Shown piece after piece: positions 2,841 through 63,494 of a DNA stretch of 64,000 nucleotides. Source of the stretch: Echinarachnius parma (lineage: Eukaryota; Echinodermata; Echinoidea; Clypeasteroida; Echinarachniidae); assembly GCA_037951105.1 (NCBI GenBank), contig JBAMJV010002944.1, positions 185,500-249,499 of the forward strand, given 5' to 3'. Within the stretch, counting starts at the first letter, position 1; every line of letters begins with the position of its first letter. Under the pieces are notes generated by a model that was not told the origin of the DNA, searched no databases, and worked only from the letters and a program-made list of their open reading frames with translations. The translations under genes and the position numbers were made by a program.

Positions 2841-3839
2841 GGTTTCAATATTCATTTCCATCTGGCTGGGCTGCAGCTAATCCACATACTGATAGTCGGG
2901 CTTAAAATTTCATTCACAAGTAAAACAATCTCATTAAGGAAAAAGAAAAGAATCACATACACGCACACACATAACACATTCAAACAATCATACATTTAAA
3001 ATATAGGATATCCAGGACTACCACATTGAAACAATCGTATATTGAAAATATTTGTAGGAAATTCATGAATATTCTGCAATGGGAACACACCACCCTACCT
3101 CCAACCACATGAAAACTAAACAATTAAGAATCAAGATGTTATTTGGTAAATATTACGGATCCTAGGTTTTGATCAAAATTTTCCCAGAATTCTCAATTTT
3201 TTTATGACAATTCATATTTCATTGTTAAAGGGAATGTCATTAACACCACCTGATTAAAAACCACATTTTTTGTATTCCTTCTGTAATAAGAAAATGCATG
3301 TGCCTAAACCAAACACATACATGGAAGACCAATTGTTTAAAAACAAAATAATCACTTTTTAAATAAATTTATCCCATATATTGTTACAAAAGAATGTAGA
3401 TTATCAAGGAAAATCAAGAAAACGATGAATAGGGCACCTCAGCAAAAATATATACAAATACAAGTTCTTTAAATAAGTTTGGTTTAGTCAAGCTTTGTTG
3501 TAGGTCAATAGTCAAAGTCCAGTCTGTATGACAATAGGTCACTCTCAAATACGGTCAAAAGATGCATTCAATTGCGAGTATGAGTTCCAGATTCTTTGTG
3601 TTTTTTCCATGGGGGTTGTTGTTCACTTTGTTATGGTAGCAAGTGTTTTATGGTGTAGTTGAAAGATTTTGAATAATGCAAGTGTGGAATAAGGTGAAAT
3701 AATAGTGTGACATCTGGATAGAAAATGAATAGGTAGTGCGTTATTTATTTTTAACTCAAGTTTCTCTTTTATTTCAGTCTGTCAATGTCAGTAGGATAAA
3801 TTTTCATAAGACAATCATAAATGATTTGATATCATACTC

Positions 3840-4177
3840 CGGGCTCGACACTAACATTGCCCCCGGGGCCAGTAAAATTTTACTTCGGGCAGGGAAAATG
3901 TATCCAAGTTATATTTGGGTGGCTCAAATGGGCAAGCTTTTAAAATTGACCGACAGAATGAGAAAATATGATATGTACCATGCCCAGCCTCACCCATAAT
4001 GGCAGTTTTTATTGTCAGTGTTAAGGGAGTAAAAATTTGAATGGTTGACAGTTAAGTTTACAAATGAAATGTGTGATACTTAGATCCAGTAAATTGTTCC
4101 TTCTGTCCACAAAATGATTAATTGCTGGTAACTTTATTTTACTGGCCCACTAGCCAAAAATGTTAGTCTGGAGCCCT
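3840..4177. mobile_element. hAT-like MITE, GGGCTCGACAC family
   Basis: Starts GGGCTCGACACTAACATT and ends in the imperfect inverted form AATGTTAGTCTGGAGCCC. Both ends carry the family's characteristic 'ggggccagtaaaatttta' / 'ttttactggccca' words. Better preserved relatives at 25726-26050 and 35269-35611 have 7-bp target duplications. No transposase. Confidence 0.7.
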
Positions 4178-4258
4178 GATAAAATGCAAGGGGAGTCCAA
4201 CCCTCCAAATCAGCCGACCAAAATTCTGAGATAAAAAGAACTTTCCGTTGATCTTGTC

Positions 4259-4615
4259 TAAAGGGATCTAGTAACTATGGGGACATATGCAAACAGATGT
4301 AGGATTGATAAATGTGTATTTACGTGATCTGAAATGTCCACCGAGTAATGTGTGAAAATTCCATGGTTAATGAATTTCATATCATGAAATATTAATGAGC
4401 GAAAATGCAAGGTGCCATTTGCAAACTCTTTGCAATAACTTTGTACACATTTGAAACAATCCCAGGGAGACTTTCAAATTCAAACGACAAAGACATTTTG
4501 AAAAAATAACTTGTTCCATAATGGTAATATGAATACGAGGTATGTACAAAGAGCTAATGAAGTGTTACAAGTTTTAAGTAAGTTGTGTTGATTTTATCGT
4601 TACTAGATCCCTTTA
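4259..4615. mobile_element. MITE with TAAAGGGATCTAGTAAC ends
   Basis: Terminal inverted repeat TAAAGGGATCTAGTAAC at the left and GTTACTAGATCCCTTTA at the right, 357 bp apart end to end, no coding capacity. The same terminal word reappears at 24195 in a FUBP intron (only one end recognised there), so this is a dispersed family. Confidence 0.75.
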
Positions 4616-7600: not shown

Positions 7601-8352
7601 AAAAAATATATTTGTTTAAATTTTAACTTTGACTTACATTTTTAAAATAAGACTTGATATTGATTTAATCAGGCAGTTAATGTTCAAATCTTACCTTTGC
7701 AGAATCATCCTTTAAACGTGAAAGGGGAATCCTTCAACAATTTTGCAACCACTATGCAAATAGAGCAATACATTTCAGAGCTTACTTGAAGTCACTAATA
7801 CATAAATGCATCAAAGCTGTAAATATTATTTAGTGTTTCATTGCATTACAAACTGCAATGATATGCAAGTCATCTGGTAAATTTCCTTGTATAAAATAGG
7901 CATCATAAATAAATAAATAAATAGTCAAAGGATGACAAGTCAATGGCAATATAATTGCAGTCAATGGTATAAAGAAGGAAATCAATAAAGTATGTCATTC
8001 TGATAAATTAAAGCACATCATGGAAGATCTCCGAGGTGAAATCCCATGAAAAAGCAAGCATATCAATTGAAATGTTCCGATAAATAAAATGATCCGACAT
8101 CAACATATGAAAAATATAAACAAATATGGACATCCCTGCTCCTTTCCCCCAAAAAATATTTTTCTTCAGCATCTAAATTGTTTTCGATGAAAACCAAAAC
8201 TTGAATCTAGAGGACAGCCTATCCGCATACTCAGTTAAGATCACAGAACAAAAATGCATCTTTTATAATCATTCACACATGACATGCTACAATATCTTTC
8301 CTCAGAACACGCCAAGTAATCAACATTATCTCTCTCTCTCCCCTTTTCTCAT
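4616..8352. other. AT-rich non-coding stretch
   Basis: No gene recognised on either strand. Apart from the duplication at 5890-6140 it holds only short A/T-rich microsatellites (for example aaataaataaataaatag near 7906). It could be 3' UTR, intron before an unplaced last exon, or intergenic DNA of the FUBP gene. Confidence 0.5.
5890..6140. repeat. Local direct duplication, about 100 bp x 2
   Basis: The string from tatatcgattggaacattca to ggatacatatacccaccgac and gagacgggac occurs at about 5902-5994 and again at about 6052-6138, with about 60 bp between. The conserved GC-containing tail stands out in AT-rich surroundings. Function unknown; no coding frame is conserved. Confidence 0.75.
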
Positions 8353-9713: not shown

Positions 9714-12700
9714 CTGTAGGGTGGGGAAGAGGGGGTCACAGTCATTGCATGTAATCCCACACACGTCTTTTTATGTCATTATTATCCAATGTCAGAATTG
9801 TGTGTAGCTTAGTCCCACACACGTCTTTTCATGTCATTATCATATAGTCCCATAAATGTCTATCCTCAACAATAAATATGCATGTAGTCCTGTAAATGTC
9901 TCTAAATTTCAATACTGGATGTAGTCCCACACATGTCTATCCGTGTCAATACTGGATAAAGAGAGTCCCATACATGTCTATCCACTTCAATATTGGATGT
10001 AGTCCCATACATGTCTATCCATGTCAATACTGGATATAGAGAGTCCCATACATGTCTATCCACTTCAATATTGGATGTAGTCCCATACATGTATATCCAT
10101 GTCAATACTGGATATAGAAAGTCCCATACATGTCTATCCATGTCAATACTGGATATAGAGAGTCCAATACATGTCTATCCACTTCAATATTGGATGTAGT
10201 CCCATACATGTCTATCCATGTCAATACTGGATATAGAGAGTCCAATACATGTCTATCCACTTCAATATTGGATGTAGTCCCACACATTCTATCCATGTCA
10301 ATACTGGATATACAGAGTCCCATACATGTCTATCCGTGTCAATACTGGATATAGAGAGTCCAATACATGTCTATCCACTTCAATATTGGATGTAGTACCA
10401 TACATGTCTATCCGTGTCAATACAAGATATATTCCCATAAATGTCTAGATCGAGCTAGTCCCATATGTGTCTACATCACTACTGCATGTATGTCTATCCG
10501 TGTCAATACAGGATATATTCCCATAAATGTCTAGATCGAGCTAGTCCCATATGTGTCTACATCAATACTGCATGTGGTCCCATACACGCACATCCATAAT
10601 TATTGCACATGGTCCCACATGATCCATGTAAATATGTTTATCAATTACATGTAACAATAATAATACAATGACGATAGTGATAACAATAATACAAATAACA
10701 ATAATAATAATAATAGCCACTTGTCGTGACTTTTCATGTTTGATCTCTTCATGAAAATGATGTTGAATGCTTGGTTCGAGTATTCAACCTCATTCACATG
10801 GATCATAATTACATATAGAAGTCTTTCAAAATGTCTACCTTTCAGCAACATTAGAAACTTAACAAGGTTGGACAATTGAGATTGTACAATTAATTCAAAA
10901 ACTAAATCCAGGAAATGCTGAATATATCAAATTTAATACATTTTAATTTCAGACATTCTGTTGTTAATCACTATTCCTAGAAACAGAATTCATCTCAAGA
11001 ATCAAATTCAACAAGTTTTATTGTCATATTCGCCCAACCAAATGTATCTTGAGACCTAATAAGAAAAAACAGACGGAGCAATAAAATCAAAGATCCTTCA
11101 GTCACTGGTAACAGCAACTCTGAGGTAATGGTCGGGCAACCTTTAGGAAGAAGACAAAGCACACAAGAATCAATCCATAAATTTGCAAAGCATGACAAGA
11201 TCAAGATGTGAATGATTTTTTTTAAAGCATTGGTTTTCTTCTACTTTCTTTGCAATTCAAACAACAGAAATCATTTCATAGAATAAGGCAAAGGGGGGTT
11301 GAAGATATATAAAAGAACACTTGTATCTTAGTTAATGGTATGAGTTGTATTATAGCACACGTGAAAATGAACTTGTTGGAGTTCTGGGAGTTGTACTATC
11401 ATCTGTGGGAATTTGAATATGAATGTTGTGTACAATATTCTTCCAGGAAATTTTCATCCCATAATCCTGAATCTCTGCTAGCTTAGATGCCAACTAGTCC
11501 TCTGTTGGATGGTAAGACATAGTTCACTTTAAAGTCATTCCAACTTCAAATTTTCGGAAGTGAGCACAGGGCAGCACCATGTCTCCAGAACCAGGGGGTG
11601 TTTCACAAAGGTTCAAAGTTGAACTCAACTCCAAGTTGGACCTAAATATAATGAAACCATTTGTTTCTATTTGATATTATCTAGGAACCTTGAAGTTATT
11701 GATATAAATTTTTGTTGAAAGTTTTAAATATTTGTTTTATTCCAAGGCTACAAACAGCGTTCCATAATTGTTAGGTCCAACTTACGAGTTAAGTTCAACT
11801 TGGGATCTTTGTGAAACACCCCACAGGTAGAATTGCGCGTGAGCACCACACTAGCCCAACTCTTCAGCCAATGCTTGAAACGAGAACAGGCCTGCTTGCC
11901 TGGGACCACTCAAAATCAGGTCGGCCACCAAAACTTCATCAATGCTAAGTTTTACTGGGCCACAAGTAAAATAGGTTAAATTCTAGCATTGCTTCAGTGT
12001 ATGTACGATACAGAGCGCGAAGAGTGCGTATATGGCATGGCCTCCCCATTCTCTCTGTCAAAGGCGCCCCTCTGGCTTGATGATAGTCTCTTTCAGGGTT
12101 GGACCAATGTCATTCCGCATTACATCTCTGAGCACTATCAGGGAAAATTTGTTAATCAAGATGAAAAGGCCTGCCTTGGTTAAAAACAGATCAGGTCTTT
12201 GTGGTGTTGATTAGAACATCAATTTCCACTGTAGAGCACAAGAATGTACTTTGGAATGCAATTAGGAGAATACTAGACGAGTTCACTATTCAAGTTTCAT
12301 GCACATCCTACTAACAAGGATAGTTCCTAGCAACACGAAAGCGTGCCAGAGTTTTGTCAAATGTAGCAAGCCATGAATACATGTGTGCAATGTAGAATCT
12401 AAGTATTTTTTTTTTCCTATTAAAAATAACTTTCTCCAATGTTATTAAACTGATCTGTTGGCCTAACCCTAATTAACAATTTGTCTTCTTAGTCGTCATC
12501 TAAGCCCTAGTATCAGCCACGTGCCTGGTCGGCAACTAAGCTAGCAAGATTTCAAGACTATGGACCCAGGTGTTCATATTCGTGTGAGTAGAGTTGATTC
12601 GTATCTGAAGATTGATGAAAAGGAGGGGACTACATTCTCTTTTTCTTCTCGAAAGCTTCTTCCTTAAAGTTGCCCATGACCTAACAATCCCCTCCGAGCT

Positions 12701-15700: not shown

Positions 15701-18700
15701 GGGCTATTTTGGGGCTCACGGGGGCTCTTTTTTTTTTTACATCGTTTTCACTGCTCAAGGGTCTAATAAATGATTATCATGATGTGATCTATCTGATTAT
15801 GTCATGTTTGATACGTTTCTGGCGCTTTCTGATCATGCAAAAAGATGTTTAAAAAAAAAAATAATAATTTTCGCCCCCGTGCCGTGGCTCACGGGGGCGA
15901 TTTTAAAGGTATCGGGGGCGAATCGCCCTTTGCCACCGTGTATTTTTTTGGTTGATTTCAAGAAATTACTGTTGAAACCTCAGTCAATGGACATCACAAA
16001 AAGAGATGTCATTATAATGTACACTTGTTTTATCTTTACATATGGGCAATTCCACGGTAACGGAAGGACATTCCGACGCAATTTTTGAAATTTAATCAAA
16101 TAATTCCAGGATCCTGCTTATGATTCATCATTGTAAATAACATTTCTGAGACTCTTGGTGGGACACCTTTGATTTCCTATTTTTTTTTTTTTTTGTTACA
16201 TTACGTTTATTAGATATGGACACTAATGAGGCCGGTAACGGAAGGACGGCAAAATGGACATGGATTTTGAAGTTCTTTAGTTATGATCCAATCTCTGTGA
16301 AGTTTCAAATGCTATCATGTTATATTGGCTCATAGTCCATTCCCTAATGTTCAAAGAGTATTACAACATTTATTTGAACAAAATATGTCTATTGGTATAT
16401 TAATTACAAGAAGTTAATTGCTTCACTTCTGACACTGTTCGGTAACGGAAGGACAGAGTTTTTGATTCATTAAAAATATACTTTAGGGCTCTCAAAAAAC
16501 TGAAATTTTAATGTGAACACATATTGTGATATTCAATCATCCAATTTGGTACCTTAAAACAGAAAAATAATAGAAAGGAATGCAAAAAACGAAGAAAATC
16601 TAGAAATAGGCACTGTGTAGTCACATGTGTATGGGTTAATGTATGGTGTCTGTTTCTCCTATCAGGAGACGCCCAATATTTTTTTTAATCATGTAAACTG
16701 AAAGATATCATTATGTGATCATGATTGATGAAAAAATAATCCAGAAAAAATAAACAAGATCAGAAATAATCCTCATTTGATTTTTCCACTTTTGGCTCAT
16801 TTGGAGTGGAATTGCCCATATGTGAAGCCCACTTGAATGAAAGCAAAATATTATTACTCCCCAACAACTTAAGAACCTTGCAACTACCTCGAAATGCCTA
16901 TTTTGTCAGGTGTTTTTAGGAATCTCTTTTAACTAATGTACTACCTGTCTTTGGGAATGTGCGCAGGATTCATGGAGTTCAGGATTTGGGTTTTAATAAT
17001 CAACAGCTACATGTAGTAATGCTTGAATGTGAATGATCTTTTCAATGCCCATAATAATAATATGAACATTAATATAGTGCTGCTATTATAAATATATACT
17101 CTACTGCGCTTAAATTATTATTATTACCCATGGCCATGAGCCACTTGGAAGGGATGCTCCCCAGGGAGTGGAGATGGAGCACACAATGTGTGCTGGCTGA
17201 CATTGTATCCTATGACAGGGGTAATAATAGCGCTAGGCGCTTAGAGGTGATATTGTATCATATAATTAAGCACTATATTTAAAATCAAACCCATTAAAAC
17301 CATTATTTGAGTGTTTTTGTCAACTTACCCGGGGCCTGGTCCTCCGTTGAATCCTCCCCTAGGTCCTCCACCCTGTGGGCCTCCAGGTCCACCTGGGGGA
17401 CCACCTGGGCCTGGACCCTATTATGGAGAAAGTCAGAAAGGATAAAGAAATTATGATTTAATGTGATTTTCTTAGGTCATTTGTCTTTATAAAGAACCTG
17501 CTACGTTCAAATGCTCGATTCCATTTGACTAGCATGAATTTCCTTAAATCAACATTCTACGTACAAAATTCCATTTGACTAGCATGAATTTCCTTAAATC
17601 AACATTATCAATTAATTCTATTGAATCAAATTAAATCTAATCAAATTAGAAATGAGCACTAGTATAGGATGAAAATTATACAGCAGCATCTTACTCTTCA
17701 AAAGAAATTATTGTCTTTTCCAAACCATAGGTTTTTACTTGTAGAAGATTTAAACACGGGAATACATTCAATACCAAAACCAAGGAGAGAGGACATTCTC
17801 TTCTAAAGCGTGCCCACAACTTGGCATGCATGACAAAACAAACTAGATGGATCTTCGACTGCGCGCAGTCGAAAATGATGCCTCCGCCATTACGCAATTT
17901 ATTTATATCAAGCCCAAATCAACATGTACACTGAATTAATTCTGTCAACTCAATTTTTGACATATCACAATTATGAGCTATAAGTGACCTTGACCTTTGC
18001 AATCATGACCCCAAAATCTAATGACTACAATTGTTCCCTAAGATACATTCAGGTATCAAGTTGGATTGAAATCTGATATTCAGTTCTTGAGATTTCCAAT
18101 CTCAAGCTACTTTTACATATAATGAGCCCTGTGACCTTTGACCTCATGACCCCCAAAATCTAATCAGTTCATTGGCCCCCCAAGATAAATACATGTACCA
18201 AGTTTGGTCAGAATCTGTCAAACCCTTCTTGAGATAACGCGATCACGAGCTATTTTTGCATATATAATGAGCTCTGTGACCTTTGACCTTTGACCTCATG
18301 ACCCCAAAATCTAATCAGATCATCGGCCCTTCAAGATACATACATGTACCAAGTTTGGTCAGAATCTGTCAATCCCTTCTTGAGATAACGCGATCACGAG
18401 CTATTTTTGCATGTATAATGAGCTGTGACCTTTGACCTCATGACCCCAAAATCTAATCAGATCATTGGCCCCCCAAGATACATACATGTACCAAGTTTGG
18501 TCAGAATCCGTCAATCCGTTCTTGAGATAACGCGATCACGAGCTATTTTTGCATATATAATGAGCTCTGTGACCTTTGACCTTTGACCTCATGACCCCAA
18601 AATCTAATCAGATCATCGGCCCTTCAAGATACATACATGTACCAAGTTTGGTCAGAATCTGTCAATCCCTTCTTGAGATAACGCGATCACGAGCTATTTT

Positions 18701-21700
18701 TGCATATATAATGAGCTCTGTGACCTTTGACCTTTGACCTCATGACCCCAAAATCTAATCAGATCATTAGCCCCCCAAGATACATACATGACCCAAGTTT
18801 GGTGAAAATCCGTCAATCGGTTCTTGAGATAACGCGATCACGAGCTATTTTTGCATATATAATGAGCTCTGTGACCTTTGACCTTTGACCTCATGACCCC
18901 AAAATCTAATCAGATCATTGGCACCCCAAGATACATACATGACCCAAGTTTGGTGAAAATCCGTCAATCGGTTCTTGAGATAACGCGATCACGAGAACGG
19001 GACGTACGTACGTACGGACGTACGGACGGACGTACGTACGGACGGACGGACAACCCGAAAACATAATGCCTCCGGCTACTTCGTTGCGGAGGCATAAAAA
19101 ATTATGTTTAATTTGCATAGAGCATCGGTTCTTTTAGGCATGCATGCCAAGTCATGGGCACGCTTTGGTAGAGAATGCCGGAGAGTGATTATCGTGTCTT
19201 GATAATATCTTTGATTATCTCGATTATATCACAAACACTCCTGAAACATGATACACGCGTGACAGGAAAATTTAAATTTCTTTTTCGGGGGCTACTCTGC
19301 TTGCCTGCATGAAAATAGCACCCCAAAATTTGTTTTGCATTGAAAGCAATGCAAATTAAGGGAGGGGGGGGGGCTCTATTTGGGGGCTAAATCGCCCAGA
19401 GCCCCCAAGTATTTTTTCACTGCACAAATCAACAAAAGAAGACGTCAAACTTCATATCTACAAACTCACCCCGTTGACTTTCTCTTCTATGAGGCTCCTG
19501 GCGTACTCCACCTGATCAGGGTCCCCGGCGATGAGGAACATCTTCTGTCCTGGTGGATGTTGTCCCTGGCTGATCTCAACGAATGCCCCTGACTGCTGGT
19601 TGATCCCCCGGATGGTCTCCCCACCTGATTCATCCAATCATCCATCAAAACCCCACCATTTTTGTATATTTTTCATTTCAGATCAATATATATATATATT
19701 TTTTTTTTTGTCCATCGTCGGATAAAATTGTGTTTTCAAAATGTATTTTATATACAAAAAAAAATTGTTTGGGGTTATCAATTTTCAGACATTTTAGTGT
19801 TAATTATTAAAAAGTCATTTTTACAATTTTATTTTCAAATAATTTTGGTGATGGTGCATTTTGACAGAATCCCAAGATTGCGTTCATAGGATAGCACATA
19901 CATTGCATGTATGAAATTGCAAGCAAAATGGAATAGGCAAGAGGAAAAGACACAAACATCAAATACAAGTTAGTAGATGCTCAATACGTAAAATCATGGT
20001 AAGGAACAAGGTTAAAGATATGAAAACAGGAGGTTAAATTAATTTAAATAAGTAAAATATAACAATGCAAAATTTTTAATTTTAAAAGAGAATAAGCCTT
20101 GAAAACTTGAAATTCAAAGACGGTCATTATTTTATAACTACAAATTTGTACACACTATTTTTGTCTAGATATATAAAAAAAAAAACGCTCTTATAAAATT
20201 GACAAACACTGTACCTCTTCCAATGACAAGCCCGCACTTGCCCGCAGGGACAGGGTGCTCCATGGGTTGTCCCCCACCTCGCGGTGGTCCTCCCATGCCG
20301 CCTGGTCCTCCACTAAAGTCACCCCCTCTGCCGCCGCCGCCACCACGGCCGAAGGGAGATCCGCCACCACCCCTACCACGCCCCCTTCCTCGTCCACCTC
20401 CCATCCATTGACCTCCCATTCCACCCCCTGAGCCCTCCATACCAATGTCCTGCAGAGAAACAGAAATACAACCTTATTGATCATCATCATTGTAATCAGT
20501 ACCATTATCACCGTTATTATAATTACAATTATTATCATTATCGATGTAATCATTATCATTATTATAATCTTCATCATTAATTAATATGATAGTCATTATT
20601 AACATTATGATCATCATCTGCAACAAAGTTTTCTGCCACTTTCTGAGACTACTTTAAATCTTGCTTCCTTTCATTTTCAGTGGTCAGAATGTCTGTGAAA
20701 AAAATACTTAATAAGCAGTAATAAGTTGAATTATGAAGATAAGATATGTAAGGAGATGGACAAACATCATTCATACATGCAGCAATAACAAATGTAGCAA
20801 GGCCTCTATGTCTTAACCACAGTAGTCAAGTTGAGACATGGATGAAAGCGGTCCTGGCATAAGTTACTCATTGCTGTAGCATCAAGAATACACCCTGCAC
20901 CCACGAAGAACAGATAGGTGCAGGGCTCTAGCATGATGCATATTAACTGGTGGCCACACCAGGGAAAAAAATTACAAAATAATCTTTTGGGGGCTACTTT
21001 TCAAGCTTGCATGCATGAAAATTAAACTCTAAAAATCTGTTTTGCATTAGACACTTTGCAAATTGATGGGGGCTCATTTATGATTTTCAGGGGCTCTTTT
21101 TGACATTTTGGGGTGAATTCGCCCTCGAGCGCCCTGGGCCACTCACACACACACACAAAAAAACATGTCCGTTATATAATGATCGCCTAATCAGCCGAGT
21201 AAAATCTGGATTTAATTATTTTCCAAGGGATGACATTTCGTCGACCACGAAAGCTAACTGCAGTGGCTCTGAGCCAGCCTTTCTCGCCGTCTTACCCTAG
21301 CATGGGCGATGAGATCGTTGACCATAGAAACAGCCATCTGAATGCTCTCATGGGATCCTGTGATCAGTGCAGTCCTCTCAGGGGCATCACGGTCACCTGA
21401 AAACGGGGGGAAAAACAAACGAGTTTCAGAGATTATATTAATTACTTTTTTCTTTTTTTCTATGCCAATTCCTTTTAGGCGAGTATTTTTGTCCAATTTA
21501 TTTAATTCATATGTAATGTAAATAAAGCTAATTGTCAAACAATGTGACTGGCTATAGCAAAACCCTGCACTTGTTGGTAAAAATCAAAATGTAGAAAGGC
21601 CCCTTCGCAAGCTTTTATGTTTTGTTCTAACAAATTGGTCAATAATTGGCGTTTTACAATTTTACAATCATAAGTCATTTACACACATGTGAACTTAAAA

Positions 21701-45397: not shown

Positions 45398-46802
45398 TGT
45401 CGTGGTAATTTTGTACCGTAATATATATTTATAGGATGGAACACTTGAATATATATTTCTGTAATATTTTATCGTAATGTTATATCATTTTAGTTCTGTA
45501 CTCAGTATAATGTTGGTAGGCAATATAGAAGAAAGCCAAGTTGGTCAGTTTATGAGTCTACCCTTTTCTTTCATACCCACCCCTCTATTGATCCTCCCTG
45601 CATCGCCCCTATTCATGCCCCCCCCCATAAACCCGCCTTGTACCAAGCTGCTGGGCAGCCCTATTCAAACACTCCCCCAGCCCCAAGCCCAACTCAGGAC
45701 AAGTTCAATGCCCTCTTTGTTCTGCGTTATATCCTCTTCTTTTATGTCATCTTTCTTAGTTACATCAAGTTTGTTTGGTGTTAACTAACAACTTGAATCT
45801 TGCTTTTAGAGAAAAGGTATAAATATGAGGTGTTAGAAATATCATTCCCTGTAAAAGTAACCGTGTTGTGAAGTTGGATCCTGGACCAGTGGACCCGAAA
45901 GCCATTTTGTTAGTGTAGTGCTGGTGGAAGCTGTCCTTGCATTGCTGATTATAAGGTGAATACTATATATTTTATATAAGTTTGTATTTGATTATGTACA
46001 TTAGGTGTAAGAGAGTGTGAGCTTCTTATTTAATTTATGTTGGAGTCTATATTGAATGTATATGTAGGTGTTCAATTCAATTATCAGTGATAGATGGTCA
46101 TGTTCAGCGAGATTCTCCTTTGATTTGTAGATGTATTTTGCACTTGTTATAATTATAGATTTACAGTGAGATTATTCTTCATTTAAGTTCATAATATAGT
46201 TTAGCTTTCAGCGTAGTATTATTGTGAGAGTTGACAGTGAATACGAGTAAATATTTGTTCTGAACCATCTTAGTTATCACGGTTATAAAGTGTTTGTAAT
46301 TAAAGTTTACTTAGTTATTTGGTAATTGTTTCATATTGCACGGGTATGTAGTTGCGGGATGTAATTGACACTTTGATTTAGTTAAATGTGTTGATTCATT
46401 ATATGTTTTTGTTCTTTTGTTTCACAGGTGTTGATGGTTACGCTGTAATCTGTATAAAACTGTGTTGTGTCAGGTTTTAGTTTGCTTTTTAAGGTTTCAG
46501 TTTTATGTCCTTTAAGTTTTCCGTTTTCGGTCAGGTTTTAGGTCTTAGTCGTTAGTTTTTGGTTTCAAGATAAAGTTTTAGTTTTTATCGTTTTGGCTTT
46601 TGGGTTTTCTCTTTTAGTTTTCGTTTATGTTTTGGCGTTTTATATTTGGAATTTAATAAAGAGTTTAAAGTTAAGTTATTGTCTTCAGTGTCTTCCTTTC
46701 CATAGTCTTCTAGTAAACGAACCAGGGATAGATTTGTTAGGTTTTGATATGATTTATTGATTAATTTATTTTAATACCTGCGGACCAGTTTCGCAGGTCA
46801 CA
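45398..46802 (+). repeat. 5' LTR of element A
   Basis: 1,405 bp, starts TGTCGTGGTAATTTTG and ends CGCAGGTCACA. It contains a TATAAATATGAGG-like promoter word near 45819 and an AATAAAGAG polyadenylation-type word near 46656. Confidence 0.93.
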
Positions 46803-46923
46803 TAATTTTGGTGCCGAAACCGGGGAGGACTGAAAAGAAACACTGTTGTAAATTAAAATAATAACTCGCCAAATTGGGATAACTTGAATAAATTGAATAG
46901 GCCAAAAAGGGAATATTTTTAAT

Positions 46924-48138
46924 ATGATAAGCCTGACACAGCATAGCAAGGTTACAGGAATCAACATGGAGACGCCCATCCCACTGAACTTGTCAACTCC
47001 CATCGGAGGTGAGACGTGCTCACCGCTGAGAGCAGGAACGACAACCATCGGACCAGCACCCGAGTGGGACCGGTATAGGGCAGCTACACCTCTTCAACTT
47101 GCAGGGTTAGACCCCATGCCGTCAATGGCAGAGCTAGCATTGAGCAGTGGACCACGATACGTGACATCGCACCAGGTGAAGCCAGTATCTACATTCAGCG
47201 GCAAGGGAGGACTTAAGGTGGAGGATTGGGTCAGGGACATGAAGTATGTACTTGAGTCAAAAGGTCCAATGCCTCCACATGTGCAGTTTAACGAGATCGT
47301 TCGACACACTGGAGGACGGGCTCGTGACCTCATCCTGAACTTGGAGCTGGATAGCGACCGATGCCTTACGCCGGCTGCAGCCTTTCGGGAACTGTTGGAG
47401 GAGTATGGCGACGCAGACTACACTACATCACCGATGGCAAGTTTCTACGCACGGGTCCAGCACTCCAACGAGACAGCAACCGAGTACGCTGTCGCTCTTG
47501 AGACAAAGCTGCGGGTCGCAAAGGACAGAGGAGAGAGAGCAGCGATGGTCGAGCAAGCGGCACGTGACAGCATGCTGTGCATCCAGTTCATGCACGGTCT
47601 ACGGGATCTAGGAGTGAAGGCTCGACTTGCACCGATGCGGCCTCGGGAGATGACGTTCCGCGACTTGAGGAGAGAGCTGCGCGTCATCGAGGAGGAGGAA
47701 CGTCATAACTCAGCCCAGGTCTACAGGCAGGAGGTGCGACAGGCAGAGCTGAAACAAGCAGAGCTGAGACATACCGCCCCACCCGAGAACCGAGCAATCG
47801 ATGAGCTGACACGAGCCATGCATCAGCTGGTCACGACCCAGCAACAGCAGATGGAGTCGGTGAACATGGCCATGGATTCAGTGAACAGGGCCATGGAGGA
47901 GAATCGCCAGAGGATAGCTGCATTCGAGAGCCAGCTTCAGCGACCCAGAGGCCCCTTCGAGAGCCCGCTTCAGCAACCCAGAGGCCCCCATGATGACAGA
48001 GGGATAGGCGCCGGACGAGGAGGAAGGCGACCGCAGGTTAGTGTCTGCTACACATGTGGACAGCCGGGCCACTTTTCAAGATCTTGCCCTAATCATCGGC
48101 AGATGCAAGGTGCCCCATCACAGCAGGCGTTAAACTAG
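46924..48138 (+). CDS. gag: gag region of element A
   Basis: 404-residue frame of the retrotransposon. A capsid-like region (PVSTFSGKGGLKVEDWVRDM onward) is followed by a charged, Gln-rich helical stretch and a CCHC zinc knuckle, CYTCGQPGHFSRSC, near the C-terminus. This is the structural protein of the particle. It ends shortly before pol, as is usual for Ty3/gypsy. Fossil part, not a host gene. Confidence 0.9.
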   Translation: MISLTQHSKVTGINMETPIPLNLSTPIGGETCSPLRAGTTTIGPAPEWDRYRAATPLQLAGLDPMPSMAELALSSGPRYVTSHQVKPVSTFSGKGGLKVEDWVRDMKYVLESKGPMPPHVQFNEIVRHTGGRARDLILNLELDSDRCLTPAAAFRELLEEYGDADYTTSPMASFYARVQHSNETATEYAVALETKLRVAKDRGERAAMVEQAARDSMLCIQFMHGLRDLGVKARLAPMRPREMTFRDLRRELRVIEEEERHNSAQVYRQEVRQAELKQAELRHTAPPENRAIDELTRAMHQLVTTQQQQMESVNMAMDSVNRAMEENRQRIAAFESQLQRPRGPFESPLQQPRGPHDDRGIGAGRGGRRPQVSVCYTCGQPGHFSRSCPNHRQMQGAPSQQALN

Positions 48139-48164
48139 AACGACCCACAGATGGAGGGCATTCT

Positions 48165-51100
48165 GTGGGTTCCCTCAACCAATCCTGCCCTAAGGAAGCT
48201 GAGCTGAGCGAGAGCCAAGTGGAGGAGGACCAGTCCAGAGGTGGAGAGTTGGTGGGCCCAGTAAATAGCGTGGCTATCACTATATGTAATCAGCAGTGCC
48301 ACGCGATATTAGATACAGGCTCACAGGTAACCACCATCACCGCAGACTACGTGAGACATCACCCCGTGCTTCGGAAGAGAGAGATTAAGCAGACCAGTAT
48401 TCAGCTGGAAGGTGCTGGTGGCCAGGCCGTCCCGTATGAAGGTGTCATCCTACTAGACATCGAGTTCCTGGGGACGAGACTGAAGTCGGTTCCTGCCTTG
48501 GTCGTCCCAGCTATTCAGAAGACGGGAAAGATCTCTTGCCTGCTTGGGACTAACGCTCTCCGTGCCTCTCGGGACCAGCTTCACAGCAAACACGGGCGGA
48601 AGTTCATGCACTTCGTGAAGGCTTCTTCAATGCCCTGCTTCGTAGCATTCGAGGCTATGAACGGCGACGGGCTCGACCTGGCAGATCGCTCGGGTCACGT
48701 AGGAGTTGTGCGCTATGAAGGGAGGAAACCACTAGTACTACGCCCCGGTCAGCAGGTAGACGTTGATGCATGGGCCCCAAATTTCACCCGTGGAAGGATC
48801 TTCACGGCCCTGGTCGAAGAGAACGACGAACTGGTGGGCATCAAGACAGAATCAACACTCACAGAAGTCAACGATGGCCGAGTCAAGATAACGCTAACCA
48901 ACCTTTCCAGCGACGAAGTGTTTCTGAGAAGACATAGGCCGCTGGGTAGGATAGAAGTCGCGAACCCGCTGTACCCCGCCAGCGGACAACTTACCTCTAC
49001 GAGTCACGGTGAGAACAATACAGGTCTTGGTGATTCTGCTACACGTGTGAACGTTTTGCGACAGGACGTTGCTGAGCCTGTGGCTGGACTGGAACTGCCA
49101 ACCGAAGGCCTTTCATCGGCAGAGTCCACGTTGCTACGGGAGGTACTTCAACGAAATGCAGATGTTTTCTCCAAGGGACCAGAAGATTTTGGCTGCACAG
49201 ATACCATCGTACACGATATCCCCCTCGTCGACCCCACCCCATTCCGGATGCCATATAGACGGATCTCACCGTCTGATTTCCATGAAGTTAGGGATCATAT
49301 CCAGGAGCTGCAGTCAGCCGGCATCATTAAACAAAGTAAAAGTCCATTTGCATCCCCCATCGTGGTCGTCCGAAAGAAGGACGGGAAGATCCGGCTCTGC
49401 GTCGACTACCGGAAGCTGAATTCCCGCACAGAAAGGGATGCATTCCCCCTCCCCCGCATCGACGAGTCCCTGGACGCACTAGGCAAGGCCAAGTTCTTCA
49501 CTAGCCTCGACCTTATGGCCGGATATTTACAGGTGCATATGGCAAAGGACGACCAACCGAAGACGGCGTTTACAACTCCCATGGGCCTGTTTGAGTACAC
49601 CCGGATGCCATTCGGATTGATGAATGCCCCAGCGACGTTTCAACGGCTGATGACTACTGTGTTCGGAGACATGAATCTGAGTGAGCTGCTCATCTACTTA
49701 GATGATATCATCATCTTCAGTTCTACGCTGGAGGAGCATCTCACCAGATGGGAGCGTGTCTTCGCCCGACTTCGCGAACATGGACTTAAGCTGAAACCGT
49801 CCAAGTGCAACATACTTCGAAAGGAGGTAAAATACCTGGGTCACGTTGTATCAGCGGAGGGAGTTGCGACGGATCCAGAAAAGACGGAGGCTGTCCACGA
49901 CTGGCCTATTCCAAGGACAAAGAAGGAGGTGAGGAGGTTTCTTGGCTTCACTGGTTACTATCGGCGCTTCATGAAGGATTATGCCAAGATAGCGAGGCCA
50001 CTCTTCAAGCTGATTGGCGGTAAGAAAGGAAACGCCAAGAAACCACCATATACCCCGTTTCTTTGGGATAAGGACTGCCAGTCATCATTCGACACACTCC
50101 GGAATTTGATGTTGAATACACCAGTCCTAGCCTACCCAGACTTCACCCTGCCCTTCATCCTCCAAACGGACGCATCAGGTGATGGCTTGGGAGCTGTTCT
50201 TGCCCAGGTACAAGATGGCCGCGAGCGGGTGGTGGCATACGCAAGCCGCTCCCTTACCGTTGGAGAGGCTCGCTATCCAGCTCACAAGCTAGAGTTCAAG
50301 GCACTTCATTGGGCAGCTACGACAAAGTTCCGTGACTACATCTACGGGCGTAGGGTCACGGTAGTCACGGACAGCAATCCACTGACATATGTGCTTAGCA
50401 GTGCTAAGCTGGACGCACACGGTCAACGATGGGTGAATGACCTCTCTCACTGCGACATGGACATCAAGTACAGACCTGGGAAGGCAAATGACAACGCCGA
50501 CAGCTTATCGAGACTCGCGAGCGAAGATGTTAAGGTGATCTTTGATGAGGCAGTCCACGGCAAGCATCATAAGCCAGTAAAACAACCCAACCCCCAGACC
50601 GAGTCGCCATCTCACCAAGACACTGCGTTCAACATGGCGACTCATGCTTCAACGTCGGAGCAAACGGTGGGTCAGGGGTCGACTAAACTTGAAGCAAGAA
50701 TTGGCGCCCAAGATGTAATAGCAGCACAGGAAGCACATGAAGCTCTGCGAAAGGTAGCTGAATGGATATCCCAGGGACAGAGGCCTAGCCGACGGCAGAG
50801 CCGCAAAGAGACGCGGCTAGTAAGGAGACTACTTGGGAAATGGGAGCACCTCGAGCTGAAGGACGGGATGCTGTTGTACCGAGCTAAAAATAGTAAGTCA
50901 GCTGTACCTGTTCTCCCAAGGAAACAGCGGAATCAACTTCTTCGCAGCATTCACGACGAGATGGGACATCCAGGTTATGAGCGGACTCTTCATCTTTTAC
51001 AATCCCGCTGCTTCTGGCCAGGTATAGCTGCCGAGGTGCGATCATATGTACAGCGGTGCAAGCGGTGCACCCTAAGGAAGACACCAGACCCACATGCCAG

Positions 51101-51530
51101 AGCCCCACTAGAGAGCATCAGGTCGACCCGCCCCCTCGAACTGGTATGTCTTGATTTCCTGTCCCTCGAATCGTCTATGGGTGGGATTGAAAATATCCTG
51201 GTGATCACCGACCACTTCACCCGTCACGCCCAAGCATACCCGACCAGAGACCAGACTGCCCTGACCGTCGCTAGAGCCCTGTGGCAGAATTATGCTGTGC
51301 ACTATGGAATCCCTGAGAGAATTCACAGCGACCAGGGTAGATCTTTTGATGCCGCCGTCATCAAAGAGCTGTGCAGTCTGCTGGGCGTCGACAAAAGCAG
51401 GACCACACCCTATCACCCCCAGGGTAATGGTATGACGGAGAGGTTCAATAGAACCCTGCTCGACATGTTGGGGACACTACTACCCGAACAGAAACCGCGA
51501 TGGAAAGACCATGTATCCGCCATGACCTTC
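48165..51530 (+). CDS. pol: pol region of element A (protease, RT, RNase H, integrase)
   Basis: Family landmarks in order: aspartic protease AILDTGSQVTTI, reverse transcriptase with LLIYLDDIIIF, RNase H LQTDASGDGLGAVL, integrase zinc region (HDEMGHPGYERT ... CKRCTLRK) and catalytic core (LDFLSLE, HSDQGRSFDA). The region is interrupted at 51530 by element C. The integrase tail, with GDKVLVANKN and the RYPLR-like end, lies at 55276-55911. Fossil part; not a host gene. Confidence 0.93.
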
Positions 51531-51589
51531 CCAGGTAGCAAGCCAACGTTGGACCAACGTCGGAAACTTGCAAACTCGTTGGAACTCGT

Positions 51590-52985
51590 TGGACGTTGGA
51601 CAATCTCGTTGGATCAACGTTGGACCAACATCGGTAACTCGCAGTGAAAAAGAAGTTGGACAATCTCGTTGGACCAACGTTGGACCAACATCGGTAACTC
51701 GCAGTGAAATGTACGTTGGACAATCTCGTTGGACCAACGTTGGATCAACATCGTTAACTCGCAGTGAAATAGACGTTGGACAATTTCGTTGGACTAACGT
51801 TGGATCAACATCGGTAACTCGCAGTGAAAAAGACGTTGGACAATCTCGTTGGACCAACGTTGGACCAACATCGGTAACTCGCAGTGAAAAAGACGTTGGA
51901 CAATCTTGTTGGACCAACGTTGGATCAACATCGGTAACTCGCAGTGAAAAAGACGTTGGACAATCTCGTTGGACCAACGTTGGACCAACATCGGTAACTC
52001 GCAGTGAAAAAGACGTTGGACAATCTCGTTGGACCAACATTGGACCAACATCGGTAACTCGCAGTGAAATGGACGTTGGACAATCTTGTTGGACCAACGT
52101 TGGACCAACATCGGTAACTCGCAGTGAAAAAGACGTCGGACAATCTCGTTGGACCAACGTTGGACCAACATCGGTAACTCGCAGTGAAATGGACGTTGGA
52201 CAATCTCGTTGGACCAACGTTGGACCAACATCGGTAACTCGCAGTGAAAAAGACGTTGGACAATCTCGTTAGCCCAACGTTAGACCAACATCGGTAACTC
52301 GCAGTGAAATGGACGTTGTACAATCTTGTTGGACCAACGTTGGACCAACATCGGTAACTCGCAGTGAAATGGACGTTGGACAATCTCGTTGGACCAACGT
52401 TGCACCAACATCGGTAACTTGCAGTGAAATAGTCGTTGGACAATCTCGTTGGACCAACGTTGGATCAACATCGGTAACTCGCAGTGAAAAAGACGTTGGA
52501 CAATCTCGTTGGACCAACGTTGGACCAAATCAGTAACTCGCAGTGAAAAAGACGTTGGACAATCTCGTTAGCCCAACGTTGGACCAACATCGGTAATTCG
52601 CAGTGAAATGGACGTTGTACAATCTTGTTGGACCAACGTTGGACCAACATCGGTAACTCGCAGTGAAGAAGACGTTGGACAATCTCGTTGGACCAACGTT
52701 GGACCAACATCGGTAACTCGCAGTGAAATGGACGTTGGACAATCTCGTTGGACCAACGGTGGACCAACATCGGTAACTCGCAGTGAAAAAGACGTTGGAC
52801 AATCTTGTTGGACCAACGTTGGATCAACATCGGTACCTCGCAGTGAAAAAGATGTTGGACAATCTCGTTGGACCAACGTTGGATCAACATCGGTAATTCG
52901 CAGTGAAAAAGACGTTGGACGATCTCGTTGGATCAACATCGGTAACTCACAGTGAAAAAGACGTTGGACAATCTCGTTAGACCAA
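51590..52985. repeat. 60-bp satellite array, about 23 units
   Basis: The unit runs gacgttggacaatctcgttg, gaccaacgttggaccaacat, cggtaactcgcagtgaaaaa, with few differences between copies; variable sites are mainly aaaa/aatgg/aatag before GACG. The centre TTGGACCAACGTTGG is self-complementary. Because 60 is divisible by three, frames on both strands stay open for 100-245 codons (GPTSVTRSEKDVGQSRWTNV and similar); these are not genes. Confidence 0.97.
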
Positions 52986-52995
52986 CAGTAATGAG

Positions 52996-54010
52996 TGGAC
53001 TCAAGTAGAATTACAATCATAAATAGAAGTGCGCCATCCCCGGTGAATTACCATATAGGATCGATATGTATATTATCGGGTGTCAAGAAACCATGTATGA
53101 GTTGGGCCATCGATCTACAAGCAGTTAATAAAGTAAGCTTTCAACTATACTCGTGTGCCTGCTTGTATTATATTACAACATGGTGTCTGAAGTGAAAGTG
53201 ACTGTATGTCTGATTCGATTCGCCATGACCTGTGTTGTAGAAATGCTAATTTGAATCCATTTTGGGAGGCGAGCTTCACGGTTGATGTGTGACCGGATAT
53301 ACCATCCAGAAAACGCTTTATTGAGAACTGTACTGTTCGTTATCAACGGTGCATAGCTAGTAGGAAGAAAGAGCTCCAGAAGAGGCAGAAGCGATACTAT
53401 GACCAGGGTGCCAAGTCGCTGCCGGTGTTGAAGTCTGGAGAACGTGTGTACTACCAAGTGGGAAAAGAATGGAAACCTGGCGTAGTGACAACTCAAGATT
53501 CAACGCCCCGCTCGTACCACATCCAGAGTGAGAAAGGTGGGCGGTATCGCCGGAACAGACATCATCTAAAGAAGCGTCGCGCACCTGAAGGTAACATCCA
53601 TGTTCCAGTAAACGAGGAAACGGAGGTCCCAGAAGCGTGCTGGAGTGAGGTGAAGCCGCCCTCGCAAGAACGTGACAGGCGCTACCCACTTCGACGTCTC
53701 AGACCCCCGGATAGATTAGATTTGTGATAGAGATGAATACCATTTAGGGCAGAATAATCCCTTGGTATCATCTAGGCGTTGGGTAGTCCACCCTGGCACT
53801 AGCACGTTAAACCATTTTGCATTAAGGTAAATGTCGGTCTTACATAGGGGATGACAACCGTACGAAAGGGGCAGAATAATCCCCTGGTTCCATCTTCTGG
53901 GTGTCGGGTAGTCTACCCTGACACTCAAGTTTGTAATTTACCAGTATTTATTATTGTTATGCCAGAGTTACACATGGCATTTCGCCTACTTGTATTATAT
54001 TAAAACACCA
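52996..54010 (+). mobile_element. LTR-element remnant D inside the satellite array
   Basis: 53330-53727 matches the integrase C-terminal end of a Ty3/gypsy element different from A (RRKKELQKRQKRYYDQGAK, SGERVYYQVGKEWKPGVV, then a RRNRHHLKKR and RYPLRRLRPPDR tail). The words tgcttgtattatattacaaca (about 53160-53180) and acttgtattatattaaaaca (about 53988-54007) look like the two LTR ends, the first followed by a TGGTGTCTGAAG primer-site-like word. Most of the element is missing; a broken fossil. The 60-bp array resumes at 54011. Confidence 0.75.
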
Positions 54011-54140
54011 ACGATGGATCAACATCGGTAACTCAAAGTGAAATGGAGGTTGGACAATCTCGTTAGAGCAACGTTGGATCGACATCGCTAACCCACAGTG
54101 AAACGTTCGTTAATCCAACGAGAATCCAACATTTCACATC
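54011..54140. repeat. Resumed, diverged 60-bp satellite units
   Basis: ggatcaacatcggtaactca, gaggttggacaatctcgtt and gacatcgctaacccacagtg are diverged copies of the array unit, showing that remnant D was inserted within the array. Confidence 0.85.
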
Positions 54141-54747
54141 TGTTGTTCACTACATGTAGCTGTTATGTTAGAAAAGGTAATTTTTTTACTCGTAGCACAG
54201 GTGGTCAAAACCCCCTTGCATAATAAAAGGATTTAAAATTAGCTGCTGAAAGCAGGATGTATGCCATCGTTGGATCAACGTTGGTTCAACGTTGGATGAA
54301 CGTTGGTTATTATTCATGAATATTCATGAGTGGTTATCATTGACTGCAAAAAGCATTAATAATCATGTTATTTGATTGTTCAGAATGAATCCAATGTTAT
54401 TATTTACTCATTATTTGAAATATATGTAAGTTATTTATCTACAAAAACATTCTAAAGGTTTGTTTCCATGATGTATTTGTGTAAATTCTTAAAACTTTAT
54501 CCAAACATTCAACTTTATCGAAATACCAACCATCAAACAAATATTAACACAGAAGCTAGGTTATATAAAGCTGAGTGGATGATGTAGATGTAGTGAGTGT
54601 AGGAATAGGAATAGGACTATATGGATAGGAATAGGACTAGGAATAGGGTTAGGGTTAGTCTTAGGTAAAGGGAAAGCTAGGATAGGATGTTCTAGATATC
54701 ACCAATAGGCGTGTCATATGAATATTAATTTAATTTTTTTAGTACGG
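54141..54747. other. AT-rich interior of element C
   Basis: Mostly unique AT-rich sequence, no gene. It holds a short GTTGG cluster (54263-54305) and a small aggaataggaataggacta / agggttagggttag repeat at 54600-54665. Confidence 0.6.
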
Positions 54748-55275
54748 TGAGACGTTGGTCCAATGTTGGACCAACGTTGGACCAACGTTGGATCAACGTT
54801 GGACCAACGTTGGAGAAATGTTGGTGAATTACGCTGGACCAACGTTGGATGCTTGTTGGAGACATGTTGGATGCTTGTTGGAGACATGTTGGATGCTTGT
54901 TGGATGAGTGTTGGAGACATGTTGGATGCTTGTTGGAAATATGGTGGATGCTTGTTGGACACATGTTGCTTTGACGTTGGATCAACGTTTGCGTACGCCC
55001 AACCAACGCTGCTCCAACGTTGGCGAATACAAAATACCAACCTTGGATCAACGTTGGAAAAGCGTTGGTCCAACGTTGACAAATGACAACTTTCCAACGA
55101 TGGACCAACGTTGATCCAACGTTGGTATTTTGTTTTCGCCAACGTTGGAGCAGCGTTGTTTGGGCGTACGCAAGCAACGTTGGTCCAACGTTGCCGGACA
55201 ACGTTGGACCAACGTTGCCGAAAAAATTGGACAACGTTGGTCCAACGTTGGACCAACGTTGGCTTGCTACCTGGG
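54748..55275. repeat. GTTGG-rich right array and palindrome of element C
   Basis: First repeats of ccaacgttggaccaacgttg, then tgttggatgcttgttggaga about five times (54845-54965). A palindrome follows at about 54985-55170: gcgtacgcccaaccaacgct, gctccaacgttggcgaatac is matched by gttttcgccaacgttggagc, agcgttgtttgggcgtacgc. It ends in the right terminal repeat. Confidence 0.88.
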
Positions 55276-55911
55276 TTCGCATACAACGCAACATGCCACT
55301 CTTCGACTGGATTCACGCCTCATTACCTGATGTTCATGAGAGAACCGAGGACCCCAGCTAACTTGGTGCTGGACATGGATGCGGACAGGGATGCGAACCA
55401 AGGACAAGCCGAGTACGTCCAGCAAGTCAGGGAAGGCCTGGAGGATGCGTTCCGCGCTGCTAACACTGCGGCTGACCAGGCAAGGACGAAGCAGAAAAGG
55501 GCGTATGACCGGAAGTCCAAGGGGATAGAATTTAAGGTAGGCGACAAAGTACTTGTCGCAAACAAGAACCTTCGGGGTAGGAGGAAGATCGCGGATAGGT
55601 GGGAGGAGCATCGATACACTGTTATTAATAAGGTCAAGGGTCAGTCTGTGTATGTTGTACGTAGGGACGACAATGATATCGAGCGCACCATTCATAGGAA
55701 CATGCTGACTGCATGCACATTCCTCACAGATGGCTACGATGCCTCAAACGAAGAAGAGGAAGCAGTTAGTGTACATGAGGAGACGGTTTCCAATGACATC
55801 GTCAGTCCCGATATGTCCCTTTCTGAAGCCGACTCTACACCCCGTCCCAAGCCCCAGAGAACTCAATACCCCAAAAGGCGACGTAAGGCCCCTGATCGGT
55901 TTGGACTGTAG
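55276..55911 (+). CDS. pol: 3' part of element A pol (integrase tail)
   Basis: Begins directly after element C. Contains NATCHSSTGFTPHYLMFMRE, then an Arg/Lys-rich helix and GDKVLVANKNLRGRRKIADR with a chromodomain-free end KPQRTQYPKRRRKAPDRF, typical of integrase C-termini in Ty3/gypsy elements. Part of the fossil, separated from the main pol region by the insertion. Confidence 0.85.
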   Translation, partial: FAYNATCHSSTGFTPHYLMFMREPRTPANLVLDMDADRDANQGQAEYVQQVREGLEDAFRAANTAADQARTKQKRAYDRKSKGIEFKVGDKVLVANKNLRGRRKIADRWEEHRYTVINKVKGQSVYVVRRDDNDIERTIHRNMLTACTFLTDGYDASNEEEEAVSVHEETVSNDIVSPDMSLSEADSTPRPKPQRTQYPKRRRKAPDRFGL

Positions 55912-56067
55912 AATAATAGTTAATTTGTCATATATATTGGACTGTAATGCATTGTTGAGGACACCAATATTCAAACTAGTGGTGAATGTCATGGTCAATT
56001 TTTACATTCAGATTATATTTATATTCTTTTCATTGTTGAGGACAACAATGTTTAAACTAGTGGTGAA

Positions 56068-57474
56068 TGTCGTGGTAATTTTGTACCGTAATATATATTT
56101 ATAGGATGGAACACTTGAATATATATTTCTGTAATATTTTATCGTAATGTTATATCATTTTAGTTCTGTACTCAGTATAATGTTGGTAGGCAATATAGAA
56201 GAAAGCCAAGTTGGTCAGTTTATGAGTCTACCCTTTTCTTTCATACCCACCCCTCTATTGATCCTCCCTGCATCGCCCCTATTCATGCCCCCACCCCCAT
56301 AAACCCGCCTTGTACCAAGCTGCTGGGCAGCCCTATTCAAACACTCCCCCAGCCCCAAGCCCAACTCAGGACAAGTTCAATGCCCTCTTTGTTCTGCGTT
56401 ATATCCTCTTCTTTTATGTCATCTTTCTTAGTTACATCAAGTTTGTTTGGTGTTAACTAACAACTTGAATCTTGCTTTTAGAGAAAAGGTATAAATATGA
56501 GGTGTTAGAAATATCATTCCCTGTAAAAGTAACCGTGTTGTGAAGTTGGATCCTGGACCAGTGGACCCGAAAGCCATTTTGTTAGTGTAGTGCTGGTGGA
56601 AGCTGTCCTTGCATTGCTGATTATAAGGTGAATACTATATATTTTATATAAGTTTGTATTTGATTATGTACATTAGGTGTAAGAGAGTGTGAGCTTCTTA
56701 TTTAATTTATGTTGGAGTCTATATTGAATGTATATGTAGGTGTTCAATTCAATTATCAGTGATAGATGGTCATGTTCAGCGAGATTCTCCTTTGATTTGT
56801 AGATGTATTTTGCACTTGTTATAATTATAGATTTACAGTGAGATTATTCTTCATTTAAGTTCATAATATAGTTTAGCTTTCAGCGTAGTATTATTGTGAG
56901 AGTTGACAGTGAATACGAGTAAATATTTGTTCTGAACCATCTTAGTTATCACGGTTATAAAGTGTTTGTAATTAAAGTTTACTTAGTTATTTGGTAATTG
57001 TTTCATATTGCACGGGTATGTAGTTGCGGGATGTAATTGACACTTTGATTTAGTTAAATGTGTTGATTCATTATATGTTTTTGTTCTTTTGTTTCACAGG
57101 TGTTGATGGTTACGCTGTAATCTGTATAAAACTGTGTTGTGTCAGGTTTTAGTTTGCTTTTTAAGGTTTCAGTTTTATGTCCTTTAAGTTTTCCGTTTTC
57201 GGTCAGGTTTTAGGTCTTAGTCGTTAGTTTTTGGTTTCAAGATAAAGTTTTAGTTTTTATCGTTTTGGCTTTTGGGTTTTCTCTTTTAGTTTTCGTTTAT
57301 GTTTTGGCGTTTTATATTTGGAATTTAATAAAGAGTTTAAAGTTAAGTTATTGTCTTCAGTGTCTTCCTTTCCATAGTCTTCTAGTAAACGAACCAGGGA
57401 TAGATTTGTTAGGTTTTGATATGATTTATTGATTAATTTATTTTAATACCTGCGGACCAGTTTCGCAGGTCACA
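56068..57474 (+). repeat. 3' LTR of element A
   Basis: 1,407 bp, apparently identical to 45398-46802 except for a C-tract length difference. Followed by TATG, the target duplication. Confidence 0.93.
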
Positions 57475-57611
57475 TATGCAAACTGTCACAATGTTAATAC
57501 TTTATAATTACAAATGTCTATCTTCGACAAGTCCGTTTTAGTTTGCTTTTCCTTCTTTTATTTTACGAAAGTTCAATGTTCACAGATCGTTTGTCTGGTC
57601 ATCAAGACTAG

Positions 57612-61916: not shown

Positions 61917-61964
<48 letters not shown>

Positions 61965-63460: not shown

Positions 63461-63494
<34 letters not shown>
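63461..63494. repeat. Poly-G run of 34
   Basis: Uninterrupted G tract. The glycine- or proline-rich open frames crossing it are artefacts. Confidence 0.95.

Follow-up and report, generated by a model that had tools for sequence, protein, structure and literature searches.

A 3,746-bp element within a 64,000-nucleotide stretch of the Echinarachnius parma genome (contig JBAMJV010002944.1; hereafter the window) very probably belongs to a young, many-copy family of DNA transposons that lack an enzyme of their own and in which a tandem-repeat array has developed from one end. Young copies of the family carry inverted CCCAGGTAGC.. ends flanked by 2-bp target-site duplications (TSDs). The array starts within the end and passes from copy to copy as a block whose units keep their order. 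Short relatives bear related arrays in the same position, and copies have inserted into other copies of their own family. We therefore favor, with considerable confidence, a non-autonomous cut-and-paste transposon moved in trans by a partner transposase.

The element has exact, inverted 15-bp ends (CCCAGGTAGCAAGCC; 51530–51544 on the forward strand and 55261–55275 on the reverse strand), for which the window holds one other match, with three mismatches. These ends lie within 35-nt inverted arms that are 94% complementary (33/35), and TT is duplicated on both sides. The terminal inverted repeats (TIRs) claimed in a first-pass annotation of the window were thus borne out. Its description of the body held in part. 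The GTTGG array, with an 11-bp period, and the palindrome (arms at 54989–55068 and 55094–55173, 80 nt each, 91%, with a 25-nt spacer) are both present near the right end. The 60-bp array (23.5 copies by Tandem Repeats Finder, TRF; 23 units by segmentation) makes up only about 37% of the element, so a body of mostly 60-bp repeats was an overstatement, and about 1 kb of retrotransposon-like DNA within the array (52987–54007) had gone unmentioned. CCAAC stands on both sides of this passenger, which the repetition of the array alone could produce. The 144-aa open frame in the passenger has weak collinear similarity (E 0.012) to the tail of the long terminal repeat (LTR) retrotransposon that hosts the element in the window, and it presumably resembles a gypsy integrase tail. 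The frame matched no Pfam family at E 0.001 and no PDB sequence at E 1.

The exact 15-bp end occurs at 1,368 places (702 forward, 666 reverse) in the 1.2-Gb genome, and its reversed control pattern at none. Among the first 100 of these places, 39 pairs of ends converge and 22 ends are unpaired. From 20 stretches we compared 22 complete copies, the window copy included, which span 3,336–4,595 bp. An exact 2-bp TSD flanks 20 of the 22 (chance match per copy, about 0.07), or 18 of 20 when the copies on C202 are taken as one. The annotation's proposal, which hinged on other inverted pairs with these ends and 2–3-bp duplications, is upheld by the many copies found. Young copies are mostly 97–99% identical to the window copy in their bodies; single segments can be less similar, such as the last 358 bp, which in the seven copies of a second subfamily is 92% identical to the window copy. 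Two older copies (L023 and L026) lack the retrotransposon-like piece. A 30-base body word has 534 genomic matches with up to three mismatches, and the family occupies roughly 0.2% of the genome (534–684 copies of about 3.7 kb), a figure that leaves out diverged copies and short relatives. The longest frames in the window copy, L023 and L026 are array translations or inserts, with no recognisable transposase. Hence the family shows what is expected of non-autonomous TIR elements: TIRs, a TSD, many near-identical copies and no transposase inside. All copies read end in CC..GG, one altered end (L032) excepted, having been chosen by that end.

Two side observations concern the insertion sites. Three copies stand in a row with the same flanks (C202:18781-31029) and therefore apparently reflect a local tandem duplication that included the element. 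The 20 insertion sites from the window and 19 loci, not turned by element orientation, point to a slight preference for palindromic targets centered on the duplicated dinucleotide, with A at −5 in 10 of 20 (and T in none) and T at +3 in 10 of 20.

The array is continuous with the end of the element. Bases 16–43 match the 60-bp unit at 25 of 28 positions, and the array thus starts inside the TIR. The local score of this match is 41, whereas none of 2,000 mononucleotide shuffles scored above 22, and the right end reaches the same score against the unit over 23 bases (22 matching). Per kilobase, the left array has 52.8 half-sites (CGTTGG/CCAACG) and the right end, over its last 526 bp, has 60.8. 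The retrotransposon-like piece has 1.0, and the density is 0.11–0.23 both elsewhere in the window and in the flanks of 15 copies.

We also identified related arrays among ten loci with unpaired or variant ends (L001, L004, L005, L006 and L029–L034). Three of these (L001, L030 and L031) correspond to long copies along the part that was read. The other seven are short relatives of 324–715 bp whose other end carries 1–3 mismatches, six of them with a matching 2-bp TSD. Tandem arrays with TRF periods of 49, 60 and 70–71 bp begin less than 90 bp from the left end in five (L004, L005, L006, L032 and L034); TRF detected none of these periods in L029 and L033. Successive periods are about 11 bp apart, which is also the spacing of the short motif. 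Together with the 25/28 match, the arrays in these five relatives support the annotation's suggestion that the end gave rise to the array. From the sequences we read the arrays as having probably grown repeatedly from one kind of end; some of those in the short relatives may share common descent.

The order of units within the long arrays shows how they are inherited. The left arrays were cut into 462 units with 111 distinct sequences, 42 of which occur in two or more copies. Each copy has 11 to 35 units (the count of 13 for L020a is too low, its list having ended at a doubled unit). Unit variants are collinear between dispersed insertions, as in the strings of the window copy (CDLSAOARBEAefFN.PMUiG.a) and L011 (CDLSAKOR.EB.ne.FNcPMTIJGHa). 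Among 153 pairs of 18 young copies, which left out the older L023 and L026 and the tandem duplicates L020b and L021c, the longest common subsequence averaged 10.1 units (range 3–20). Shuffling unit order 200 times gave a mean of 4.69 (sd 0.08, largest 4.93). Units of equal length differ by 4.19 bases on average within one copy, and the same unit position differs by 0.75 bases between copies (first three units only). Furthermore, one block is present twice in L027 and one is missing from L022. We therefore conclude that the array travels whole by transposition and is altered by block changes, not homogenised inside each copy, although a change in array length by transposition itself is possible. 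Comparing array copy number between insertions, as the annotation had proposed, thus revealed block gains and losses, and its view that the whole satellite-bearing unit moved recently agrees with the body identity of the young copies and their collinear units.

Several alternatives could produce an array of this kind. In one, which we consider unlikely, the satellite existed in free form before a TIR element captured it. Such a capture has been proposed for a 171-bp satellite in Chenopodium CACTA elements (PMC8978399), and the retrotransposon-like piece is other DNA that this element has picked up. However, the 60-bp unit matches the inner TIR itself, and five of the seven short relatives bear related arrays at that end. 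The genome-wide unit count shows no excess either. The 24-base unit core has 7,123 genomic matches versus 9,669 expected from the elements alone (684 pairs with a mean of 14.1 unit cores, from 22 copies), an expectation that treats every end pair as a long copy when some are short relatives without the unit. With fewer matches than expected, no free reservoir is needed, although a modest free fraction may exist. The first 100 unit-core places listed fall into eight arrays, all at ends of this family: seven lie between two exact ends, and the eighth (C1) has a single exact end at a distance of about 3 kb, for which the listed places give no exact partner. Free arrays without ends, which the annotation had named as evidence against its proposal, were absent from these eight.

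The continuity of the tandem repeats with the end and the long palindrome near the right end recall foldback elements (the FB, Tetris and sea-urchin TU type), whose TIRs are the tandem arrays themselves. Foldback elements make 8–9-bp TSDs. Those found here are 2 bp, just one of the two ends has the 60-bp array, and the inverted repeats are 35 bp instead of long tandem TIRs, all of which leaves this origin improbable even though Tetris has tandem repeats inside its TIRs (PMC4079207). Still less credible is a Helitron- or Helentron-type element with central repeats. To our knowledge, Helitrons and Helentrons make neither TIRs nor TSDs. The copies have inverted repeats at both ends and a 2-bp TSD in 20 of 22 cases, and the resemblance lies in the outcome: oyster Helentrons also leave dispersed satellite-like arrays on non-autonomous elements (PMC7492417).

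For a transposon moved in trans, we propose a mechanism centered on the end. The repeated CCAACGTTGG/CGTTGG word, often at 11-bp steps, would serve as a putative binding site for the partner transposase, by analogy with the subterminal repeats of CACTA elements. Tandem duplication of the end, by slippage or unequal exchange, would generate units of about 49, 60 or 71 bp, and block duplication and deletion would lengthen and shorten the arrays. Transposition would then spread whole arrays, each jump planting a mini-satellite at a new place, sometimes in one of the family's own copies.

Some features of the element fit the EnSpm/CACTA superfamily and others do not. CMCT-type elements end in CA..TG in most cases and make TSDs of 2–5 bp (PMC12730594). 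The TSDs are 2 bp here (20 of 22 copies and six of seven short relatives) and subterminal repeats are present, with 52.8 and 60.8 half-sites per kb against 0.11–0.23 outside. In both respects the family is like EnSpm/CACTA, but in its CC..GG termini it is not. ISL2EU elements follow a rule on TSD sequence; since that sequence varies among the copies, ISL2EU was discarded. The Pfam Transposase_21 profile had 17 genomic matches and one 775-aa protein query had 58. An identical 775-aa EnSpm-type frame occurs at six loci (C1014, C5053, C5093, C6328, C7900 and C10366), which may reflect duplicated contigs or a recent spread. Two of them, C1014 and C5093, were compared over 9.9 kb and are almost the same throughout, so that their own ends were not reached.

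Some observations weigh against the proposed transposon and its partner. No autonomous copy was found, and the full-length relative with the same ends and a transposase that the annotation had envisaged was sought without success. Neither the ends (up to three mismatches) nor the decamer CCAACGTTGG occurs within roughly 3–4 kb on either side of four EnSpm-type loci (C1014, C207, C436 and C1021), and none of the 17 Transposase_21 matches has the decamer within 1.5 kb. No transposase match coincides with any listed end; on C4508, the only contig with both, they are about 39 kb apart. The CC..GG ends differ from the CA..TG of EnSpm/CACTA, and binding to the motif is a prediction. Two copies (L010 and L012) have no matching TSD, each off by one base, some pairs of copies share just three units in order, and the end places listed are the first 100 of 1,368.

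Other candidates and inserts were met in the course of these searches. The long TIR pair on C1208 and C2021, of the old type with about 5 kb of other repeats, has the same 10-base flanks and 99.7% identity and is therefore probably one locus on two contigs. A 3.5-kb sample of C690, another of the long pairs, reads by eye like a LINE. In the older copy L023, at element bases about 1489–2630, a further element appears by eye to be nested; its inverted ends are AATAAGCC-like, and its 164-aa frame presumably resembles a SAP-domain protein. Another old copy (L062) has an insert of about 5 kb at element bases about 2790–7820 with tandem repeats of roughly 107 bp (self-match spacing).

The family has also inserted into itself. 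Six of the 39 listed complete pairs lie inside another pair (C147, C271, C291 at two levels, C306 and C342). In the three read (L019 on C147, L024 on C271 and L028 on C306), both inner flanks are element body, with TSDs of GT, AT and TT; on C291 and C342, nesting is indicated by the end positions. The probability of at least six nested pairs among 39 is 2e-10 at a genome share of 0.2%, 1e-4 at 2% and 0.012 at 5%. In L065 and L066, each seen from one side, a young copy is lodged within an older one, although they were picked for long pair distance and are not a fair sample. The long pairs on C1292 and C3738 were discarded, each being a young element within an old one. Part of the excess could stem from local hopping or from target regions that copies share, and self-targeting is therefore a lead, not a result. 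One tentative and rather doubtful idea is that the array acts as a landing platform, its multiplied transposase-binding words favoring mobilisation and drawing insertions into existing copies. None of the five nested sites that could be placed falls inside the 60-bp array, which does not help this idea. If it were true, nested satellite-rich clusters would result and the family would be a nursery for new satellite DNA. A literature search on self-insertion with subterminal repeats returned no paper that matched most of the terms.

The host of the window copy (Table 1) is a gypsy-type LTR retrotransposon, and the element sits in its pol frame at the end of the integrase core. Its LTRs (45398–46804 and 56068–57476) align over 1,409 columns with no mismatches and one 2-base gap. 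This host is therefore very young, as the annotation had stated. The uninterrupted 29-base site, with the element removed, occurs at 24 other genomic places (15 exact, 9 with one mismatch), each of which we infer to be a copy of the host retrotransposon. Of 42 gag relatives, the six recorded under a named organism are all from echinoderms (Strongylocentrotus twice, Anneissia, Diadema, Antedon and Asterias). Elsewhere in the window, two tandem arrays (17984–18995, 151-bp units; 9906–10447, 41/78/119-bp units) are by eye unrelated to the 60-bp array, and pure G runs occur at 38277–38301 (25 bases), 61919–61963 (45) and 63461–63494 (34).

Table 1. Features of the element and its host retrotransposon, in window coordinates.
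Feature	Position	Strand	Basis or remark
Probable non-autonomous TIR element, whole, 3,746 bp	51530..55275	+	Inverted ends, TSD, other copies
Left TSD, TT	51528..51529	+	Flanks; uninterrupted site in 24 other places
Right TSD, TT	55276..55277	+	Flanks; uninterrupted site elsewhere
Left TIR, 35 bp	51530..51564	+	Inverted-arm match; end-unit comparison
Right TIR, 35 bp	55241..55275	-	Inverted-arm match; end-unit comparison
Degenerate partial unit overlapping inner left TIR	51545..51572	+	25/28 bases match 60-bp unit
60-bp tandem array	51592..52986	+	TRF, unit segmentation
Retrotransposon-like passenger within array, about 1 kb	52987..54007	+	By eye; common to young copies, unmatched in older L023/L026
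144-aa open frame, presumed gypsy integrase tail	53293..53724	+	Weak similarity to window retrotransposon tail
Remnant of 60-bp array beyond passenger	54008..54110	+	By eye; copy at 53990–54111, 80%
Middle, mostly unique body	54111..54751	+	Short 11-bp array inside at 54268–54306
Right subterminal GTTGG repeats, 11-bp period	54752..54959	+	Half-sites 60.8 per kb, last 526 bp
Long palindrome inside right end	54989..55173	.	80-nt arms, 25-nt spacer
Host LTR retrotransposon (target only)	45398..57476	+	gag 46924–48138; pol from 48165, interrupted at 51530

The origin and spread of dispersed satellite arrays are usually inferred from old, blurred remains. In this family many young copies keep their unit order, and array gain and loss can therefore be read copy by copy against a near-identical body. 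The short relatives, with units of about 49, 60 and 71 bp at the same end, may show earlier stages, and the excess of self-insertions offers a testable link between the repeated motif and target choice.

Satellites carried or seeded by transposons have been described before, for Tetris, Xmix, oyster Helentrons and CACTA cases among others, and a review table lists many such elements (PMC9659126). EnSpm/CACTA elements are alike in their short TSDs and short-motif subterminal repeats at both ends, and some seed or carry satellites (PMC8978399; Atenspm/ENSAT1 and Jozin rows in PMC9659126). Unlike them, the element ends in CCCAGG..CCTGGG instead of CA..TG, with no transposase in the copies read. 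Compared by description, Xmix and miDNA4 of Xenopus are alike in being of the miniature inverted-repeat transposable element (MITE) type with a TIR-derived or internal satellite (PMC9659126). Literature searches with the end and motif strings and for the TU elements of sea urchins found no paper, and one on echinoderm satellites with TIR transposons found a single match, which concerns Merlin. TU elements have tandem repeats of about 15 bp in their inverted ends and make 8-bp TSDs. We know of no TIR or TSD of this element's kind in the Cg_HINE Helentrons of the Pacific oyster. Cg_HINE elements are likewise non-autonomous carriers of dispersed satellite-like arrays, but are of the Helentron type with arrays formed by central repeats (PMC7492417). 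Tetris of Drosophila virilis is also apparently non-autonomous, with tandem repeats within its terminal repeats; these are about 220 bp and also form kb-size satellite arrays (PMC4079207), whereas none was free in our sample. Tetris, the oyster Helentrons and the Chenopodium CACTA elements are the closest systems (PMC4079207; PMC7492417; PMC8978399), from which this family differs in having an array continuous with the TIR of an element with 2-bp TSDs, a readable unit order in many young copies and an excess of self-nesting.

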